DNA of 64,000 bases, from positions 3,596,001-3,660,000 of the forward strand of contig JACONQ010000002.1 in NCBI GenBank assembly GCA_014281115.1. Direction: 5' to 3'. The translations under genes were made by a program, and so were the position numbers. The notes under the pieces were generated by a model that was given only the letters and a program-made list of their open reading frames with translations, did not search any database and was not told the DNA's origin. Source of the stretch: Laburnicola sp. R22_1 (Eukaryota > Ascomycota > Dothideomycetes > Pleosporales > Didymosphaeriaceae). Below, piece after piece: positions 2,136-63,975 of this stretch; position 1 is the stretch's first letter, and every line of letters begins with the position of its first letter.

Positions 2136-2413
2136 GTATGTTGTTAAATTAACTATCTAGCGGTAGAACGACAAAGGCTTTTATCTCAAATAATATAATA
2201 AAAAAAGCAGAGGCCCCTGCTTAGTAATTAAAAAGAGCGTAAAAAAGATGTAATCACAAAAAAAGCGCGTTCGAACTACTATCGAGGTGTTTGAGATTAG
2301 TCTTCGATTGAAATTAGGTGCGGTACATAGTAGTACATAATAACCTTCTATCTTAATCTACTTTAACCTCAAACTAAAAAAAAGGTTAAAAAAGGTGTTT
2401 GGCAAGCCGACCA
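2136..2413 (-). mobile_element. family G copy 1, internally deleted
   Basis: Both ends of family G are present (3' end at left, 5' end with GGCAAGCCGA at right), but about 0.85 kb of the middle is missing. It is flanked by a perfect 10-bp direct repeat CTACCCTTAT at 2126-2135 and 2414-2423, which marks a real insertion into the Gypsy remnant. Confidence 0.75.
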
Positions 2414-5332: not shown

Positions 5333-6790
5333 TAGAGTTAAGAGATTTTAGTATCTAACTTAACTATGTGTTTATTTATAGGGTTAAGAAATTTTAGTAT
5401 TTAACTTAACTATGTGTTTATTTGTAGGGTTAAGAGATTTTAATATCTAATTATACTATATATTTATTTATATGGCGTTAAATTAACTATCTAGAAGTAG
5501 TATAATAAAGGCTTTTATCTTAAATACTATAATAAAAAAGCATAGCCTTCTACTTAGTAATTAAAAAAAGTGTAAAAAGGTAGTTATAAAAATACGCATT
5601 AAAACTGCTAAGTAAGCTTAGCGGTCTTAGCGTAGCGCTACTTTTATAAGTAAAATCTTTATAAAGAGGCTACTTAGAACTTTAGGGGAGGGATAAAATA
5701 GCTTTAGCGCTGCTACGCTATAGTTATTTATTCTTTCTTTGCTATTCTAAGTTGCAAACTACTATCTAGATTATTATAAATAATATAAGTTAATATATTA
5801 ATAGGTATATACTACTTTATAAGTAGGACAAGGGTAATATATACTAAATATATATTTATCGCTCTATTACTATATTATAGTTATTCTTACTAAATCTTCT
5901 ACCATCTCTCTATATATACCTCTACGCCTTACTATTTATTTAGATATTAATATTACTAAAAAGTATACGCTAAAGATTCGCACTGCTGCTACTAAGGTAA
6001 TAATACTAGAGTTCTTTTTTATCTATAAGATAATTATTTATAGGAGCTTAGTATACCTAACTATCTATAAGGCGATGCTTATATACTAGTTAGATTGGCA
6101 GCTTATCCAGTTTATAAAAACTAAGAAGACTATATTCTCATCCTAGTAGATAAAATTACTCCTTATTAGTAATAGAATCTAAAAAAGGAGGTAAAAGGTA
6201 GAAAATAAGATATTTATTAATAATCTCTAGTGTACTAAGAGCGTTATATAGATTTATAAGATTCTTCTAGCTATTATAGCTGCGTTAGCTTATTTGAGCA
6301 AGTATGCCGCATAAGTAGTGTATAAGTGCGGATAGTTAATAATACTAATAGTAATAATCTAGGTAGGCTTTATATAGTATAAGTAAATCTTACGTTAGGA
6401 CTAGGAGCTTATAGGTATTAGGGGGTGTAAGTAAGTTTAAACTATTATTATATTATTAGGTAGTATTTAAGATTAGTCTTTAATTAGAATTAGATGCCAT
6501 ATATAGTATATAATAACCTTCTATCTTAATCTACTTTAACCTTAAACTAAAAAAAAAGGTTAAAAAAGGTGTTCGGCAAGCCAACGCCTATTTATTTATA
6601 GGATTAAGAAATCTTAATATTTAACTTAACTACGTATTTATTTGTATGGTTAAGGAACCTTAATATCTAACTTAACTACGTATTTATTCTATAGGGTTAA
6701 GAAATCTTAGTATCTAACTTAACTATAAGTTTATTTATAGGATTAAGAGATCTTAATATCTAACTTAACTACGTATTTGTTTATAGGGTT
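5333..6790. repeat. 46-bp minisatellite split by family G copy 2
   Basis: About seven tandem units of 46 bp with core GGGTTAAGAGATCTTAGTAT followed by a CTAACTTAAC block: three before 5472 and four after 6589. Differences between units are mostly C/T and G/A. The array was intact before family G copy 2 entered it, because the insertion target duplication is itself part of the unit. Confidence 0.8.
5473..6588 (-). mobile_element. family G copy 2, near full length
   Basis: A 1116-bp copy whose sense strand is minus: the 5' end (GGCAAGCC side) is at the right and the 3' end (TGGCGTTAA side) at the left. The 12-bp sequence TATTTATTTATA flanks it on both sides (5461-5472 and 6589-6600). Its minus-strand frame contains the family's conserved protein blocks, for example SITNKE, YKLDKLP and LVYKHRLIDS, interrupted by TAG/TAA stops. 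Confidence 0.85.
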
Positions 6791-7024: not shown

Positions 7025-8480
7025 TACAACCTTAAGGTCTTACGTATTAATTAAATATATTATATAGTAAATAGATAAATAATTAATCTATATTTACTTA
7101 TAGATTTTATATTGTATATATATAAGAGACTATGTATGTGGCGTTAATTCTACCTAGGGGTAGGACGATAAAGGCTTTTATCTCAAATAACATAATAAAA
7201 AAAGTAGAGCCCCCTGCTTAGTAATTAAAAGGAGCGTGAAAAGGTAATTAGGTACAAAAAAAGCACGTTCAAACTGCTAAGCGAGCTTGGCGGTCTTGGC
7301 GCGAGGCTCCCATAGGCAAAATTTTTACAAAGAGGCCACTTAGAACTTTAGGGGATAAAACTTAGGCGCAGCTACGCTATAAGCTATCTCCTCTACTATT
7401 CTAATTATTGTAAATAATATAGGTTAATATGTTAATAGGTATATACTACTATACTTATAAGTAGGATAAGAGTAATATATACTAAATACACGTTTATTAC
7501 TCTATTACTATATTATTAAGGTTGTTCTAAATAAAGCCCCCACTATTACTCTATGCCCTACTATCTATCTAGGCATTAATGTTATTTCTAAAGAAGTACT
7601 CGCTGTTACTAAAGAGTACACGCCACAGTTTTGCGCTCCTACTACTAATATAGCTACACTAAAGTTCTATTCTATCTATAAGATGCTTGTTTAGTGTAAG
7701 AGATAGGTATACTTAACTATTTATAAGGCTATCCTTATATACTAGTTAGGCTGGCAGCTAGTCTAGTTTATAAAGAATAGTAGTACTATATTCGTACTCT
7801 AGTAAACGCAATTGCTCCTTATTAGTACTAGAATTCTCTAGTAGGGGACGCAAAAGGAGGATAATAAAGTCTTTGTTAATAAGCTCTAGTATAGTAAGAG
7901 CGTCGCATAGATCCGCAAGATCCTCCTAGCTATTATTGCTGTTAAGTTAGCTTATCTAAGCGAGTACGCTGCGTAAGCGGCGTGCGAGCACAGATAACTA
8001 ATAATAGTAGTAATAATAAGCTAGGTGTGCTGTGTATAGCATAAGTGAATCTTATATAAGTTAGAAGCTTATAAGGTATAGACAGAGTATAAGTAAGTTT
8101 AAACTATTGTTGCGTTATTAGGTAGTGTTTAAGGATAGTCTTTAATTAGAATTAGGTGCTATACATAGTATATAATAACCTTCTATCTTAATCTACTTTA
8201 ACCTCAAACTAAAAAAACAGGTTAAAAAAGGTATTTAGAAAGCCGATAATATGAAATTATATATTATATTATTACTTTAGTATCTAGTATATTTTATAAT
8301 TAACTATCTTTAGTAGAAGAAGCTAATTTATATATACTAATAAATAGTCCCTAGCCTAATCTATTTATCTTTAAGCTGCTTTACCTTTTTTAAGATGTTT
8401 TTAGCACACTTATAGCTTTTTCTTATAGTGTTATACTATATACTAAAAGGTCTACGATATTTTTCTTTCTAATACTAGTA
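7025..8480 (+). repeat. family F copy 1, 3' part, interrupted by family G copy 3
   Basis: The segments 7025-7137 and 8246-8480 together match the 3' part of family F as seen at 42.0-43.3 kb. They share CCTTAAGGTCTTACG early and ACTAAAAGGTCTAC followed by a TTTTTCTTTC tail at the end. Family G copy 3 lies between them. Confidence 0.7.
7138..8245 (-). mobile_element. family G copy 3, near full length
   Basis: A 1108-bp copy with the GTGGCGTTAA 3' end at the left and the AGCCGA 5' end at the right. It sits in a family F copy. The minus strand encodes the family protein with blocks LADLCDALTILELINKDF, NKEQLRLLEYEYS and HLIDRIEL. All internal stops are TAG or TAA. The target duplication is not clear here. 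Confidence 0.85.
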
Positions 8481-13589: not shown

Positions 13590-14160
13590 TTGCAGTGGAT
13601 CGCGGAGTCGCAGCCGCGGCTATCTTCTTTTTATATAATATTGCTGCCGCTTTTAGCTTCTTTACCTTTATTTTTAAGAGTTGTTCTACTTTAAATTCCT
13701 TTTATTTTATGCTTTTGCGCACGCGTGCTTCTCTTACCTTTTTTAGAGGCTAGAATACTATACTATTATAATATTCTTAATAGTATTAAAGGTCTAAAGG
13801 CTTGCTTTTTTTAATATTTGTTTTAGTCCTAAGAGTAGTATATAAGCCCGTATTTTTATAGTATAGTAGCTTATTCTAGACCTATAAGAAATAAAGTAAA
13901 TCGCCTAGCTTTTGCAACTTTTTTGCTACTAAATCCTTTATAGTAGTATTAAATAAATAATAGAGCTATCTCTAGCTACTCCTATCGCCCTTTATTTCTA
14001 ATATTAGGCTCTAATCTTACTCTAAAGCTATATTATTAAAGCGCTTTAGTATACTATTAGTATTAGCTAGCATAATACCTATTGCTTTAAAAGAACTTAG
14101 GATATTATTATATATAAAGAAGGTAACCTAGGCGGCGTAGAATAATACCTATTGCTTTAA
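13590..14160 (-). pseudogene. P4 transposase, C-terminal part
   Basis: The minus-strand frame contains blocks typical of the C-terminal tail of fungal pogo transposases: LYYKNTGLYTTLRTKT, KKSKPLDL, VFQPLKKVREARVR and LKIKVKKLKAAAILYKKKI. The family tail normally carries a FxSPxxVREAR motif followed by a Lys/Glu/Ala-rich helix, which matches. Stops are TAG/TAA. A 20-bp stretch at 14142-14161 repeats 14074-14093. The frame resumes on the far side of Copia1. Confidence 0.6.
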
Positions 14161-21694: not shown

Positions 21695-22474
21695 TCAACG
21701 AGAGTCGTTGGAGCAGGTACAGGCTGGATGCTGAAGGAATAAGAGCAGCTGGTTTAAGACGTAGAACTCGAGTTTTAACTTGATGCTGTAGACGACGGTC
21801 TTGTAGGTCGTCTGGATATCAAAGTTGTCGGTGAATTGGGTGACGAGAAGACTGGCGTCCAGTGCGACAACGAGGATGTTGACAAGAATCAGGTGCCGAA
21901 TCATTTTTTTCCCTTGCGGCTCCCTGAATTCGAGAACGTGGTTGAGAGTGCGGGAGGCCTCCCAGATATAAATACCGGCAATAATGAACTCCTGGATGGA
22001 GAAGCCGACGAGTTGGATCATTTCGTAGATTTTGAAGACGTTGGTGAGTGAGTTGAAGGAGCGAACATTGATGGCGAGATACAATGCCGACACAGGTAGA
22101 TGGAGGACGATGAAGTTGGTGACGATCATGATTAGCACGCAGCGCGTCTTTTTCCGGTCGCTAAGCAGATGTAGTCGCGAGTAAAGCACAACGGCCTGGC
22201 CGGTCACCATGGCCCACCAACCCAGGACAACAGCGAAAGACATGGCCACGTTCGACGTCAGGCCGAACATGCGTACCAGCACAGCGGTCGCATGGACGGG
22301 GATGCCGATGCATGCGACAAGCATGCTCCAGAAATACAGCCCTTTGCGGTGTTTGAACTGATCGAAGATGAAGAAGAGGATTTCGATCGAGTTAGAGACG
22401 GACAAGCCAAAAAAGGCAGCTATCGTCATCGCCCTAGGCAATGATAGATGTACGGGCCCTGATTCGCCCGCCAT
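21695..22474 (-). CDS. seven-helix integral membrane protein, DUF7703-type
   Basis: A 259-residue protein from ATG 22474 (an in-frame ATG at 22543 would add 23 residues). Seven hydrophobic segments are evident, beginning TIAAFFGLSVSNSIEILFFI, then FWSMLVACIGIPVHATAVLV, SFAVVLGWWAMVTGQAVVLY, LIMIVTNFIVLHLPVSALYL, IQLVGFSIQEFIIAGIYIWE, LILVNILVVALDASLLV and VVYSIKLKLEFYVLNQLLLF. The GLYFWS, GWWAMVTGQ, VLYSRLHL, GFSIQEFIIAG-YIWE and KLKLEF motifs are those I associate with the fungal DUF7703 family, whose role is unknown. The plasma or an internal membrane is likely. It ends eight residues after the last helix, and a longer open tail exists in another frame at 21489-21745, so the C-terminus may be truncated or frameshifted. 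The gene is free of RIP stops. Confidence 0.75.
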   Translation of the reverse strand: MAGESGPVHLSLPRAMTIAAFFGLSVSNSIEILFFIFDQFKHRKGLYFWSMLVACIGIPVHATAVLVRMFGLTSNVAMSFAVVLGWWAMVTGQAVVLYSRLHLLSDRKKTRCVLIMIVTNFIVLHLPVSALYLAINVRSFNSLTNVFKIYEMIQLVGFSIQEFIIAGIYIWEASRTLNHVLEFREPQGKKMIRHLILVNILVVALDASLLVTQFTDNFDIQTTYKTVVYSIKLKLEFYVLNQLLLFLQHPACTCSNDSR

Positions 22475-23365
22475 AGTGTCGGGGTTGAGTAGCAACGGCC
22501 GGGGGACTGAACAGAAAAACACGGCAGGCGAGAGAGCAGTCATATAGTTTAATAAGTTAGGCCTAGCGAAAGGCGATAGGTATGCACTGCTTATACGAGA
22601 AGCTTAGCTGGAACATAATTTAAAGGCACCTTTGCCAAAATTTGAGATAGAGTTATGTGCAAGCCGGCATTATGGAAGCTCTGCGAGGTTTCTACAACGT
22701 CTCTTCCTGCAGCAGCGTGCGAGAAATAGTGGACGATGATCGATGGTCAGATGGCCAAAACCCAGGAGCCCGGGAAGTCCCGTCAAGCTGCGCTGCAGGC
22801 TCCGGATCGTCCGTCCATCCAGTAAGGCTGGAGATGGTGACGAGGAAGTTTGTGGCTTAAGGTCTGATGATTGGGCACGGAGAGAGTTTTCTTTACACGA
22901 GTCAACAGATCGCTGACCACTTCCCCGCGCCGCTCTGGCCACAATTTTACCACCCATAAAATTGCCAATAACTGACTTTGCCCCCATTCATTCACACTCC
23001 ATCGGAACTATCATATCAAAAGAGCTACAGCGCTAGCCCTGGCATATTCTGGTCGTTCTGCTGCCGAACTCGACTGGCTGAATGGCTAGTCGCAGGCCGC
23101 GTTTGATTTCGCGATTAGGTTTCAGCCGCAGCAGGCACAAGAGTCTTGGATATTGTCCAAAGCAGGAGGCAGCTCACCTGATAGTGCTTTTAGCGTCGCC
23201 CAATACTGCCCCACAATGACTTAGCCTACCTTACTAAAACAGGTAGTATAATTTTTTTAGTATTAGCTTAGGTTACCTTTCTCTCTTTTAAACTTATTCT
23301 AAATATTTTATTAAGTTATATTAAACCTATTTAAAAATAGACCCTATATATAATCTAATACTATA
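22475..23365. other. upstream flank of the membrane protein gene and right edge of the island
   Basis: Sequence to about 23220 has normal composition and presumably includes the promoter of the minus-strand gene. Open frames here (for example 22670-22987 on the minus strand) overlap others and show no family signature, so I do not call them. After 23220 RIP-type AT-rich DNA resumes abruptly. Confidence 0.5.
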
Positions 23366-34250: not shown

Positions 34251-35402
34251 TCGGCTTACCGAACACCTTGTTGACCTTTTTTTTAGTTTAAGGTTAAAGT
34301 AGGTTGAGATGAAAGGTTATTATGTACTATGTACAGCACCTAATTCTAATTAAAAACCAACCTTAAATATCTAACAACGCAACAATAGTTTAAACTTTAA
34401 ACTTACTCGCACCTTGCCTACACCCTATAAGCTTCTAACCTATACAAGGTTCACTTACAGCGTACACAGCACACCTAGCTTATTATCACTACTATTATTA
34501 GTTATCTATGCTCGCGCGCTAAATAAGCCAACTTTATAGCAATAATAACTAGGAGAATCTTGCAGATTTACGCGACGCTCTTGCCACACTAGAGCTTATT
34601 AACAAAGATCTTATTATCTTCCTTTTATATCCCCTACTAGATTCTATTACTAATAAGAAGCAATTATATCTACTAGAGTAGAAATTTAATCTTGCAGTCC
34701 TTTGCAAACTAGATAAGCTGCCAACCTAACTAGTATACTAGAACTGCCTTATAGATAGTTAATTATACCTGCCTCTCGCGCTAGATAAGCATCTAATAGA
34801 TAGAGTAGAACTCTAGCGTAGTTACTTTAATAGCCTCTTTAATAGTAATAGTGCAAATCTTTAGTGTATACTTTTTAGCGATAGCAAGTACTTCTTTAGG
34901 AGCGATATTAATGCCTAGATAGATAGTAGAGCATAAAGAGATAGTAATAGGAGGAGATTTATTAAGAATAACCTTAATACGGTAATAAAGCAATAGTGTA
35001 TCTAGTATATATTACTCTTATTCTACTACTATAAGCACAGTAGTATATACCTATTAATATAGTAAATGCTAAATATTAACTTATATTGTTTATAATAATC
35101 TAAATAGCGGTTTACAATAGTTAGGATAGTAAAGAATAGATAAAACTTATAGCTTAACTATGCTAAACCTTTTATCCCTTCTTTAAAGTTCTAACTATAG
35201 CCTCTTTATAAATTAACTTTGCATGTAGAAGCTATGCGTGCTAAGACTACTAAGCTCGCTTAGTAGTTTAAACGCACTTTTTTTTGTAATTACCTTTTTA
35301 CGCTCTTTTTAATTACTAAGTAGGGGGCTCTACTTTTTTTGTTATATTATTTAAGATAAAAGCCTTTATCGTGTTACCCCTAGGTATTTAATTTAACGCC
35401 AC
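34251..35402 (+). mobile_element. family G copy 4, full length, best preserved
   Basis: A 1152-bp copy from TCGGCTTACCGAACACC to TAACGCCAC, flanked by a perfect 11-bp direct repeat ATATTTCTTTA (34240-34250 and 35403-35413). There are no terminal inverted repeats and no LTRs. Near the 3' end a short hairpin-like GGGGGCTCTACTTTTTTT precedes the last 85 bp. Partial copies in the window that have target duplications all keep this 3' end, as expected of a reverse-transcribed, 5'-truncating element. Confidence 0.9.
34508..35065 (+). pseudogene. family G conserved ORF, function unknown
   Basis: From ATG 34508 one frame runs about 186 codons with about a dozen stops, all TAG or TAA. Blocks include LADLRDALATLELINKDL, FLLYPLLDSITNKKQLYLL, LAVLCKLDKLP, LVYQNCLIDS, LALDKHLIDRVEL, ILFSDSKYFFRSDINA and DSRA. 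Corresponding blocks occur at the same order and spacing in copies 2, 3 and 7, including the highly diverged copy 7 (LVYQDRLI, INNLINRVVLQ), so selection once kept this protein. It is mostly helical and charged, with no reverse transcriptase, nuclease, zinc finger or membrane signature that I recognise. Confidence 0.6.
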
Positions 35403-35769
35403 ATATTTCTTTAAATATATTCTTAACTTATTTCTAATAGCTAGGCTAGTAAATAGGTTTGGGGCACCCAGGTTAAGTATAGAGTTAGGTTGGGGTCGTA
35501 TAGACTATGGGTATAGGTTGGGTTAGGTCGCACACACCTTTAGTTAGGTTAGGTTAATTATATAAGATCTTAAACCTAACCTAATTTAACCTAACCTAAT
35601 TATATAAGACTCTAGTCTAATTATATAAAATTCTAGCTTAATTTAACTTAGTTTAATATTATTTAAAATATATTTTTAAATAATTATAACAGCTATTTAT
35701 TACAGACCAAATAGATATCCTAGAAATAGATTAGGGTTAAGATCTTACGTAAGTAGAGTTAGATTGGAG

Positions 35770-35830
35770 GGGAATTGATAGGGGGACCACCACTTTTACT
35801 AGTGGCACCACCCTGACTAAGCGTCACCAT
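35770..35830. repeat. left terminal inverted repeat of the MULE
   Basis: Begins GGGAATTGATAGGGGGACC and ends GCGTCACCAT. It is identical to the reverse complement of 37921-37981. The transposase ATG at 35829 lies at its inner edge. Confidence 0.95.
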
Positions 35831-41075: not shown

Positions 41076-41201
41076 GTGGCGTTAAATTAACTACCTAGGA
41101 GTAGTACAACAAAGGCTTTCATCTTAAATAACATGACAAAAAAAGCAGAGCCCCCTGCTTAGTAATCATAAAGAGCGTGAATAAGGTAATAACAAACAAA
41201 G
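41076..41201 (-). mobile_element. family G copy 5, 5'-truncated
   Basis: Only the last 126 bp of the element remain (GTGGCGTTAA end at the left). It is flanked by a perfect 13-bp duplication ATATTCTTAATAT (41063-41075 and 41202-41214), so the truncation happened at insertion. Confidence 0.85.
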
Positions 41202-48256: not shown

Positions 48257-49392
48257 CTATCCCTAAAGTTTTACTAATATTTCTCCCCCTAGCTTTTAAA
48301 ATAATAACTTATAATAATAACACCCTAACTTACTTATATATCTACTACTTTACTAGATAATTAGCTCTAACTTTTAACCTTTTACTATAGTACTAGATAA
48401 TAAACAACCTACTATATATACGCTCTACTATTACTATTACTATAATATATAATAAATTACGCGCGCCCTCTCTACTCCTAATACTAAATAGCACCCTACT
48501 ATTCTTTACTAATAATAACTTATTAACCTCTATTATACTATTCTAGCCTTACTCTACCTATCTCTTATAAAAATTCTATAGGACTATTATATACCTATAT
48601 ATACCCTACACCTTTAGTAACTATTTATTGTATATTTCTTTATACTAGTAAAACTATAAGTAGTTTATAATATGTCTAACTTTTTACTTCTAAATCTAAC
48701 TAAATCATGCCTCTTACTTTCTAAAAGCGCTCTAGTAACGCCTATTACTAATATAGCTAAGTAAGAAGAGAGAGAGCTATAAGTTAAAATTAATAGTCTC
48801 TAAAGTATCTAAGTATTATCTAATACAATAAGACAAACTAGCTATAGTAATCTCTTTATTGTATAACTTATACTATACTGCTATATATTCTCTAAGGATA
48901 GCAGACGTCTAATCTTTGTAATACCTATTCTATATATATATCCATTATTAGCGTTTTGGTTCTACTCCTTATTATTATACGTCTTATTATTCTACTTATT
49001 ATATATATATAGGCGTGTAACTACCTACTCTATAAAAAGCACATTATTAGGTTAAGGAATAGCTATGCTAGATTATAATCTTAAAGTCTTACATAATAAT
49101 TAAATAGATTATATAGTAGATTGATAAACACTTAATCTAATTATAGATTTTATACTGTATAGGCAACTACATATGATATTATTATTAACTTTAGTACCTA
49201 TAAACTATAAACTATAGTATAGCTTATAATTAACTCTATAAGAAGCTAGCTAATTTGTATATGCTTATAAATAGTCCTTAAATAGCTAAATCTATCTTAC
49301 TACTTTACTTTATTTTAAAGCGTTTTTCTAGCACCTTTATAGCTTTCTATAATAGCGTTATACTATGTACTAAGAGTGCGCGAAGTCTTCTT
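48257..49392 (+). repeat. family F copy 4, 5'-shortened
   Basis: It matches copy 3 from about 200 bp inside the start, beginning CTAAAGTTTTACTAATAT. It ends GTGCGCGAAGTCTTCTTTTAG, an ending shared with the copy at 61.3-62.5 kb but different from copies 3 and 5, so two subfamilies exist. At 48960-48985 it has only a few ATT units where the 61.7-kb copy has about 100. Confidence 0.65.
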
Positions 49393-49399
49393 TTAGATA

Positions 49400-49768
49400 G
49401 TAACTAAATTCAAGAGGAAAGATAAAAGGTAGAAAATAAGGTGTTTATTAATAAGCTCTAGTATAATAAGAGCATTGCATAGATCTGTAAGATTTTCTTA
49501 GCTATTATTGCTATTAAGTTAGTCTAGCGCGCAAGCATAGATAACTAATAATAGTAGTAGTAATAAGCTAGGTATGCTATAAAGAGCGTAAGTAAGCCTT
49601 GTATAGGTTAGGAGCTTATAGAGTGTGGGGTTATTAAGGTGTTTAAGGTTAGTCTTTAATTAGAATTAGGTGCGATATATAGTAGTATATATAACCTTCT
49701 ATGTTAATCTACTCTAATCTCAAACTAAAAAAAGGTTAAAAAAGGTGTTTGGCAAGCTAACGACTTAT
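49400..49768 (-). mobile_element. family G copy 6, 5' part only
   Basis: It ends at the right with GGTGTTTGGCAAGC, the 5' end of the element read on the minus strand, and matches copies 2 and 3 for about 370 bp. The 3' part is absent at the junction with family F copy 4. Confidence 0.75.
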
Positions 49769-50969: not shown

Positions 50970-51870
50970 TGTGTAGGTCGCATTGTTTATCTAGTGTTAA
51001 TTACCCTTTTTAAGTCCATTTTTTTAATTTAAGCCTGCGTAGGTTGGGATAAAAAGGCCGCTCTAGTCTAGCGTCTAAAAATATAGTCTACTTCTAGTCT
51101 TTACTATACAATAATAGTTTATAAACTACACACTTACTTCTTATTATTTATAAGCGCTTTAATAGCTATTAAAGTTACTTAAAGTATGTATAGAAAACTA
51201 ACTCTTACTATATTATTACTATTAGCAGTAATTGCGTTTTATTTATACGCTATTACGTAGCACACTTATATAACACGCTTACTATTTAATACTATAACTA
51301 TAAGAATCTAGTGTATTTATGCGATACTCTTCTCTCCTAGCAACCTATTAATAAACACCTTTATTTTCTCTTTTCTCTTGCCCTTAATTTTGCCCTCTAT
51401 TACTACCTTTCTAACTAGTAGTAATATAAGAAACTATAGTAAGAACTCTATATATCTATTATTACGCCTATAGTTACTAATCTATTACTAGCCTAACTAG
51501 TATACTAGGACCGCCTTATATAGGCTAAGGTATACCTTCTTCTACTTTAACCTATTAATAATCTTATAAATAGAGTAGTACTCTAGTATAGACCTAGTAA
51601 TATTAGTAAGTAAATAGATTTTTAGAATGTACTTGTAGGCAGTGTTAACAGCAGTATTAGTAATAGCACTAGAGTCTAAAAAGATAGTAGGAAATAAAGT
51701 AATAGTAGAAGTCTCCTTAAGGTTAACTTTATTATAGAGATAGAGCGTTAATATACTTATAGTGTGTAAGCTTCTACCGAGTATATATCTTATAATAGTA
51801 TAAACGTACTAATATAATAGCTATTACTAGTAATCTTTAGAAATAATAGTAAAAGAAATAATAGTTATAG
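50970..51870 (+). mobile_element. family G copy 7, strongly diverged
   Basis: The order of landmarks is that of copy 4: a TTTTTTAATTTAAGCC leader, then the protein blocks LVYQDRLI, VYLLLL and INNLINRVVLQ. Nucleotide similarity is low, and I see neither terminus cleanly. This copy shows that the family and its ORF are old. Confidence 0.55.
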
Positions 51871-51984
51871 CATTATACTAGTTCTAGCGCTAGCGCTATT
51901 ATTTTATTTTCTTCCCTAACTCTAAACTAGTATAGACCCCTGCTTAGTAATTAGAAATAATAATATAATACTTATTAAACAGGC

Positions 51985-54799: not shown

Positions 54800-55716
54800 T
54801 ATATAAATAATAAAAAGAAAAACGCATATTTTTAAGTAATATATATAAAATATAAAATAAATATATTATATAAAAGAATAAATAAATAATAAGGAAACAG
54901 ATTTATATAAAGGCTAGGAAGAGCTTATATAGGTAGGCTTAAGGCGATCTATTAATAGTTTAATAATAATTAATAAGGTATTACTAGAGATTAAGGACTC
55001 TAGAGCCTAGTTTAGAGTCTTCTTTATATAGGTATTAGTAGCATTATTTTTTCTATTAATCTATCTAATTTTAAAGATCTTATCGTGCTTATATAATTTA
55101 AAAGATTATATAATACTAATTATAAGATGCTTCTTATTTATAGTTTCTAGTTATATAAGGTAGTTATAAAAAGACTTTAAATCTATATAAATAACTATAG
55201 AAATTAGTAGTAGACTAAGTATATATATAATATTCTAAAGGGTTATGCTAATAGTAATAATATTATTAAAGCCTTCTACTATACTACATAGCTTGCTAGC
55301 AAGAACGCCTCTTATTACTTTCTTACACTTAGTTAAATTCTAGTATATAATATTAGCTAGGATAATAAAGTTATTACTATTATCTATATAATACTTAGTA
55401 CTTAAAGTAATTAGTAATTCTAGCTATAAGCTTAGATCCTTATTATTAGCAAATAAGCTATTAGTAAAGATAAATAGCTTTATAAAATAAAGATCTAATA
55501 CTATAAAAGTAAGACTATACTTACTATTAACTGCCAAGCTCGCTTAGCAGTTCGAATGCGCTTTTTTTGTAATTACTACCTTTTTTACGCTCTTCTTAAT
55601 TACTAAGCAGGGGGCTCTGCTTTTTTTTGTCATGTTAGTTAAGATAAAAGCCTTTGTCATGCTATCTCTAGATAGTTAATATAACGCCACATACTTACTA
55701 TTATTAATTTACTATT
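54800..55716 (-). pseudogene. Ty1/Copia RNase H C-terminal fragment (Copia3)
   Basis: The minus-strand frame reads LQLELLITLSTKYYIDNSNN when TAG is read as Gln, then VIRGVLASKLCSIVEGFNNI, ISITLQNIIYI, NKKHLIISII and YKHDKIFKIRQINRKNNATN. These follow the RNase H end of fungal Copia polyproteins (blocks VRSVLASELYAMV-GFN, KRLMIDIM-LRQSY and RWI-GKDNPADA). Family G copy 8 interrupts its upstream end. It may belong to the same element as the fragment at 62.5-63.9 kb. Confidence 0.65.
55530..55690 (+). mobile_element. family G copy 8, 5'-truncated
   Basis: The last 161 bp of the element, from ACTGCCAAGCTCGC to AACGCCAC, between perfect 13-bp duplications ATACTTACTATTA (55517-55529 and 55691-55703). 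It is inserted in Copia3. Confidence 0.9.
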
Positions 55717-63872: not shown

Positions 63873-63975
63873 CACGCTCTTTTTAGTTACTAAGTAGGGG
63901 CTCTGGTTTTTTTTGTTATGTTATTTAAGATAATGGCCTTTGTTGTTCTACCCCTAGGTAGATAATTTAACAACA
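63873..63975 (+). mobile_element. family G copy 9, 5'-truncated
   Basis: The last 103 bp of the element (CACGCTCTTTTTAGTTAC to TTTAACAACA), flanked by a perfect 13-bp duplication TATATTTATACTA (63860-63872 and 63976-63988). Confidence 0.9.

Follow-up and report, generated by a model that had tools for sequence, protein, structure and literature searches.

What is the repeat at 34251-35402 of this stretch, how has it been copied, and did it ever carry a protein? The stretch, hereafter the window, is 64,000 nucleotides from Laburnicola sp. R22_1 (GCA_014281115.1, contig JACONQ010000002.1:3596001-3660000), which has a genome of 63.9 Mb in 26 contigs. The repeat is one copy of an element of about 1.1 kb, here called G, that is very abundant in this genome. 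A first-pass annotation had counted at least nine copies in the 64 kb, and nine were recovered with BLAST, with 34251-35402 as the query, and with an nhmmer profile built from 39 G copies with all window copies left out, the profile matching all nine (E 0 to 4e-23); the same profile found zero matches in the reversed window. The copy that had been placed at 50970 is indeed G, with a profile match spanning 51003-51919. The copies in the window, and the parts of copy 4, are as follows.

2141-2410, minus strand: copy 1, a mini-G found as two pieces, with the 5' end joined to the 3' end and the ORF deleted; 10-bp target duplication
5473-6582, minus strand: copy 2, full-length, by BLAST and profile; 12-bp target duplication
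7138-8246, minus strand: copy 3, full-length, by BLAST and profile; no target duplication found by script
34251-35402, plus strand: copy 4 (locus L001), full-length at about 1.15 kb, by BLAST and profile; 11-bp target duplication
34523-35023, plus strand: ORF of copy 4, a frame backed by indels and periodicity and interrupted by stops
35311-35402, plus strand: 3' tail of copy 4, about 92 nt, common to full, deleted and truncated copies
41076-41200, minus strand: copy 5, a solo 125-bp 3' piece starting from the T tract; 13-bp target duplication
49390-49757, minus strand: copy 6, only the 5' part, by BLAST and profile
51003-51919, plus strand: copy 7, highly diverged, matching profile positions 15-904
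55530-55690, plus strand: copy 8, 5'-truncated, by BLAST and profile; 13-bp target duplication
63873-63973, plus strand: copy 9, 5'-truncated, by BLAST and profile; 13-bp target duplication, by eye

Across the genome there are at least 63 matches to full G (40 scored of 2,382 candidates). Searching the 64 Mb for a 28-nt tail pattern, with up to three mismatches allowed, gave at least 1,736 places, compared with 0 for the reversed pattern; both counts are lower bounds.

We examined how these copies are joined to their flanks. The duplications previously read for six window copies were all found again, five of them by script (10 bp for copy 1, 12 for copy 2, 11 for copy 4 and 13 for copies 5 and 8) and the 13 bp of copy 9 by eye, this copy being too close to the window end for the script. 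Among 77 G copies in the genome that reached the 3' end and had both flanks available, copies cut by a locus end having been dropped, 49 had a duplication scoring at least 10, as did 0.7% of shuffled flank pairs, and 15 had none. The duplications of the 51 copies scoring at least 9 were 9-18 bp long, with a median of 12 bp. They began with ATA in 33 cases, a trinucleotide that makes up 5.7% of those in the window, and with TAT in 12, and the preceding base was T in 73%, giving a nick site of T|ATA. Between the element and its duplication lay no bases (19 copies), AC (8) or ACAC (7) in 34 of the 51, and other inserts in the remaining 17. The 3' end itself is constant, being GCCAC or a variant plus (AC)0-2, and G has no genomic poly(A) end. 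A shared GCCAC end was earlier ascribed to copies 5, 8 and 9; copy 9, like copy 1, ends in ACAACA instead. At the other extremity, 20 of the 27 copies that retain the 5' end have extra bases there, the last of which is G in 16 of the 20; this base is compatible with reverse-transcriptase addition of a cap and may alternatively be the element's own first base.

G is thus a target-primed non-LTR retroposon, as the first-pass annotation had proposed, because its duplications vary in length, its insertions share the T|ATA nick and it ends in a short variable 3' repeat. A constant 3' end is combined with 5' truncation, and self-BLAST confirmed that terminal direct or inverted repeats, LTRs included, are absent. 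We regard it as extremely improbable that G is instead a DNA transposon or an LTR-derived element making duplications of about 12 bp. Only the missing reverse transcriptase speaks for such an origin, against which stand the graded 5' truncation behind a fixed 3' end, the lack of terminal repeats, duplications ranging from 9 to 18 bp, a short 3' repeat of varying length and a nick motif on one side of the insertion.

Inside copy 4, in its 3' body, lies an imperfect palindrome at 35117-35198, with a 73% self-match on the opposite strand; similar palindromes occur in L008 and L010.

What, then, supplies the machinery? The reverse transcriptase and endonuclease of an autonomous LINE are absent from G: the ORF has no Pfam match, and the rest of the 1.15 kb would be too short for a reverse transcriptase. 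Nor does G have the Pol III head of a classical SINE (tRNA, 5S or 7SL), since ARAGORN found none in the window and Rfam (E<=1) none inside the element at three loci. We consider it likely that G, as a non-autonomous non-LTR retroposon, depends for its copying on a LINE that acts in trans and recognises its ~90-nt 3' tail. A LINE sharing the last 100 bp, which the first-pass annotation suggested looking for, did not appear in a small search of nine LINE-type loci, forming about six groups and taken from ~22 that visual inspection picked out of 150 scored (662 candidates in all); only three of these nine loci had an identifiable LINE 3' end. One LINE family (L067, L068 and L069) ends in (CTA)n, unlike the (AC)n end of G. 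A larger parent element, raised earlier as a possibility, was likewise not seen in this small search. As candidates for a non-LINE parent, 30 loci with a ~480-bp reverse-transcriptase match, which we take to be LTR-type, contained no G. Copies consisting of the 5' part alone were followed by another repeat or by sequences that did not match one another, and we rejected them as traces of a longer parent. We also rejected the tail hairpins as a conserved fold, since their covariation equals that of shuffles and their folding energies are ordinary.

We then considered the reading frame, for which the first-pass annotation had given about 186 codons and which we place at ~170 codons. Relative to copy 4, the indels longer than 1 bp within the ORF were all multiples of three (14 of 14), as were 11 of 39 elsewhere (Fisher, 1.9e-6); with 1-bp indels added the fractions were 14/21 and 11/64 (4.4e-5). 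A second comparison used L085, the least RIP-damaged G copy found (TpA/ApT 1.22, index 1.01). Among 34 copies with an ORF length unlike that of L085, the difference was divisible by three in 28; for length differences in the 3' flank this held in 9 of 33, and in the tail in 2 of 11; the 5' flank, with only 11 usable copies and 3/6 changes that are multiples of three, is unfit as a control. In a larger alignment the ORF also shows a 4-bp gap, present in two copies, and, in single copies, events of 5 and 29 bp. L085 itself has a coding-like periodicity at 246-756 (chi2 33.6, 0/3,000 shuffles; halves p 0.0003 and 0.012), which is missing from the regions flanking its ORF (p 0.58 and 0.26). Because the multiple-of-three length changes and the periodicity are confined to the ORF, we conclude, from sequence patterns of this kind, that it was probably once coding and translated.

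A frame arising by accident of composition in a non-coding, SINE-like retroposon would account for several other observations, namely the stops in every copy examined, transversions that are indifferent to codon position and the lack of any protein relative found. We nevertheless think such an origin improbable, given that the length changes in threes and the coding-type periodicity, the latter in the least damaged copy, fall in one and the same interval, and that only the first of ~11 variable sites has a triplet-repeat look. The frame does not look random, as the first-pass annotation had allowed it might.

That the ORF probably once coded does not mean that any copy is intact. A RIP signature is present in 26 G copies, including copy 4, and two further window copies, with TpA/ApT of 1.68-2.03 and a (CpA+TpG)/(ApC+GpT) index of 0.18-0.55, and nearly all full copies examined are RIP-damaged. 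All 150 listed genome matches of the frame (150 scored of 745 candidates) contain stops, and L085 has four. One of these lies at codon 164, where 40 of 43 copies have a stop and none has a RIP-explainable sense codon. At each of the other three, one or two further copies have a sense codon, and sense codons opposite L085 stops are no commoner than is usual for such sites (30/77).

The first-pass annotation had called the frame conserved and proposed a dN/dS-type test. In no frame of the G copies did we detect a synonymous excess or purifying selection, and transversions were not in excess at third positions when tested by codon position (31/23/24 on internal branches). The two main subfamilies, which comprise 6 and 21 copies and were separated after a first clustering threshold had given a single group and was lowered, differ by 25 fixed transversions among 510 ORF sites, as against 3 among the other 578 (p 3e-6). 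By codon position the 25 are split 8/7/10; several of them form clusters, and the end of the frame, where the alignment is weaker, accounts for four. Other subfamily pairs mostly go in the same direction, with pair 4-7 showing no excess over the 3' part, so that the ORF often diverges faster than its flanks. Judged on these alignments, the length of the frame is kept and its amino acids are not conserved; these copies do not discriminate between a relaxed, a diversifying and a recombining history. One reading, which we offer tentatively and think unlikely, is that a LINE mobilised G as a retroposon and that the ORF, while staying in frame, diversified into a fast-changing orphan protein family between conserved ends in a RIP-competent fungus.

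Protein searches found no relatives of the L085 ORF or of a 14-copy alignment at E<=10 (272 and 7,992 candidates). Pfam gave no match for the L085 ORF, zinc knuckle included, and among 14 ORF members a single match in one member, at chance level (E 0.13); the best PDB hit had E 0.43. These results bear on whether G is a HAL1-type deletion derivative of an autonomous LINE, a special case of trans-copying in which the 5' UTR, ORF1 and 3' tail were kept without ORF2 and the orphan ORF is the ORF1 of the LINE. Full G has a 5' end, one ORF and a tail, which is the layout of HAL1, and internally deleted G copies exist. We hold this origin possible but less than probable, in view of an ORF without zinc knuckle or other Pfam domain, of a frame search in which the 150 scored of 745 candidates were G copies only, those checked having no reverse transcriptase nearby, and of flanks at 29 G loci without a LINE protein match. 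The only LINE-protein match in the window, at 13696-14064 on the minus strand, is weak (5.6e-5, 31%, with a protein from L063) and lies away from G; it is perhaps a decayed LINE.

G also occurs in shorter forms. Forty truncated copies, each of at most 320 bp, retain the tail and start anywhere from 825 to 1025 (L085 coordinates). Their starts cluster at a T8 tract, within one 15-nt stretch, to an extent that depends on the sample: 15 of 18 copies chosen for their likeness to a 125-bp copy, one of these being nested, 7 of 15 short copies taken without picking, and 1 of 7 picked by a sister tail variant (L091-L098). Truncation points common to all copies, which the first-pass annotation had named as a warning sign, are therefore present in part, in the 7 of 15 unpicked copies, with the rest scattered. 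We interpret the cluster as a site where reverse transcription stops, the rival being a second RNA start; the RNA fold upstream of the T tract is not unusual in stability. Taken further, a start of that kind would make the ~125-bp solo pieces a separate short retroposon and G a composite that acquired such a 3' end. The starts that fall in one 15-nt stretch in the three samples would suit this proposal, which we judge decidedly improbable: other short copies start elsewhere between 825 and 1025, the T tracts would stop Pol III, no Rfam or tRNA match was found, and a reverse-transcriptase stop explains the cluster equally well.

We make no claim that RIP spares short copies, because the unpicked ones come close to full copies in their degree of change (0.476 vs 0.584); those picked by likeness are little changed, with TA at 14% of sites.

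Copy 1 represents a further form, mini-G, which is internally deleted rather than truncated and in which the first ~125 bp are joined to the last ~140 bp to give an ORF-less element of ~270 bp with its own 10-bp duplication. Five further loci match it across both halves. The three of these that were inspected have a near-identical junction beside a short direct repeat (AGTTTAAAC in RIP-changed copies), and copy 1 lacks several bases at this junction. Both a single mini-G family and repeated deletion at the same direct repeat are possible. An ORF-less form of G has spread in either case, and the ORF is therefore dispensable in cis.

Under trans-copying by a LINE, a plausible sequence of events would begin with a capped Pol II transcript of G, expected to start with TCGGCTTG. 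An APE-type LINE endonuclease would nick the bottom strand (5'-TAT/AA), and reverse transcription would be primed on the GCCAC(AC)n end of the G RNA. The ORF protein, not needed in cis, could act in trans as an ORF1p-like helper or be a passenger that changes fast, and RIP would then damage nearly all full copies. A helper ORF is plausible because a Pol II-driven Alu transcript required ORF1p (PMC2666806).

A non-autonomous retroposon that keeps a protein had been called unusual. Two precedents are described, HAL1 in mammals and Eg-R1 in a fungus (PMC5753468, PMC6022598). By analogy, G appears to work like these and like the EKA genes, as one kind with precedents; we claim no membership. HAL1 (half-L1) is described as a non-autonomous LINE-type retroposon encoding only ORF1p and no reverse transcriptase (PMC5753468). 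G resembles it in having a frame that was probably once coding and no reverse transcriptase, but the HAL1 protein is recognisably L1 ORF1p, whereas the G ORF has no relative and G no parent LINE that we found. Eg-R1/BG_Non-LTR of barley powdery mildew is a SINE-like element with >3,000 insertions, no genomic poly(A) and internal T stretches that encodes a peptide and for which Pol II transcription is thought likely (PMC6022598). G is likewise fungal and SINE-like, with internal T stretches and no genomic poly(A). By description rather than by sequence comparison, the Eg-R1 peptide is at most 74 aa and the G frame ~170 codons; G is RIP-damaged, whereas the Eg-R1 host lacks RIP. EKA genes of powdery mildew are presented as fast-evolving, multicopy derivatives of LINE ORF1 with positive selection reported (PMC4641428); they have in common with G many copies of a fast-evolving ORF and LINE-type copying, but derive from known LINEs, whereas for G a LINE origin is only a possibility and no function is implied.

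Stringent-type SINE/LINE pairs have a conserved 3' tail and a short 3' repeat as the likely recognition signal (PMC3747384). G has both features and differs in having no partner LINE found, tail hairpins without covariation and no tRNA, 5S or 7SL head. In Aspergillus fumigatus the AfuSINE families have target duplications of 4-14 bp (PMC5063351); G too is fungal and makes target duplications, but it lacks the relationship to tRNA and 5S rRNA that these families have. Among titles and abstract openings, with Repbase and subscription papers outside the scope, we found no description of G.

G offers a natural non-autonomous retroposon that carried an in-frame, unrecognisable protein in a repeat-mutating fungus. 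The nested series of full G, ORF-less mini-G and solo tails shows which parts are sufficient for copying, and lets one ask whether the orphan ORF is a trans helper or a diversifying passenger.

Several neighbouring features were also recorded. One G copy contains a foreign repeat of ~108 bp (L012:2562-2669) flanked by a 13-bp duplication of G; its relatives lie beside window position 49390 and in L021, and form a second short retroposon-like family with similar duplications. Adjoining copy 4, at 35440-35800, is a palindromic repeat rich in GGTTAGG/CCTAACC, and a similar one lies next to a G tail in L095. On the minus strand, 21695-22543 is an intact gene for a DUF7703 membrane protein, the product of which is most like those of Paraphaeosphaeria and relatives, as would suit a Pleosporales host near Didymosphaeriaceae.
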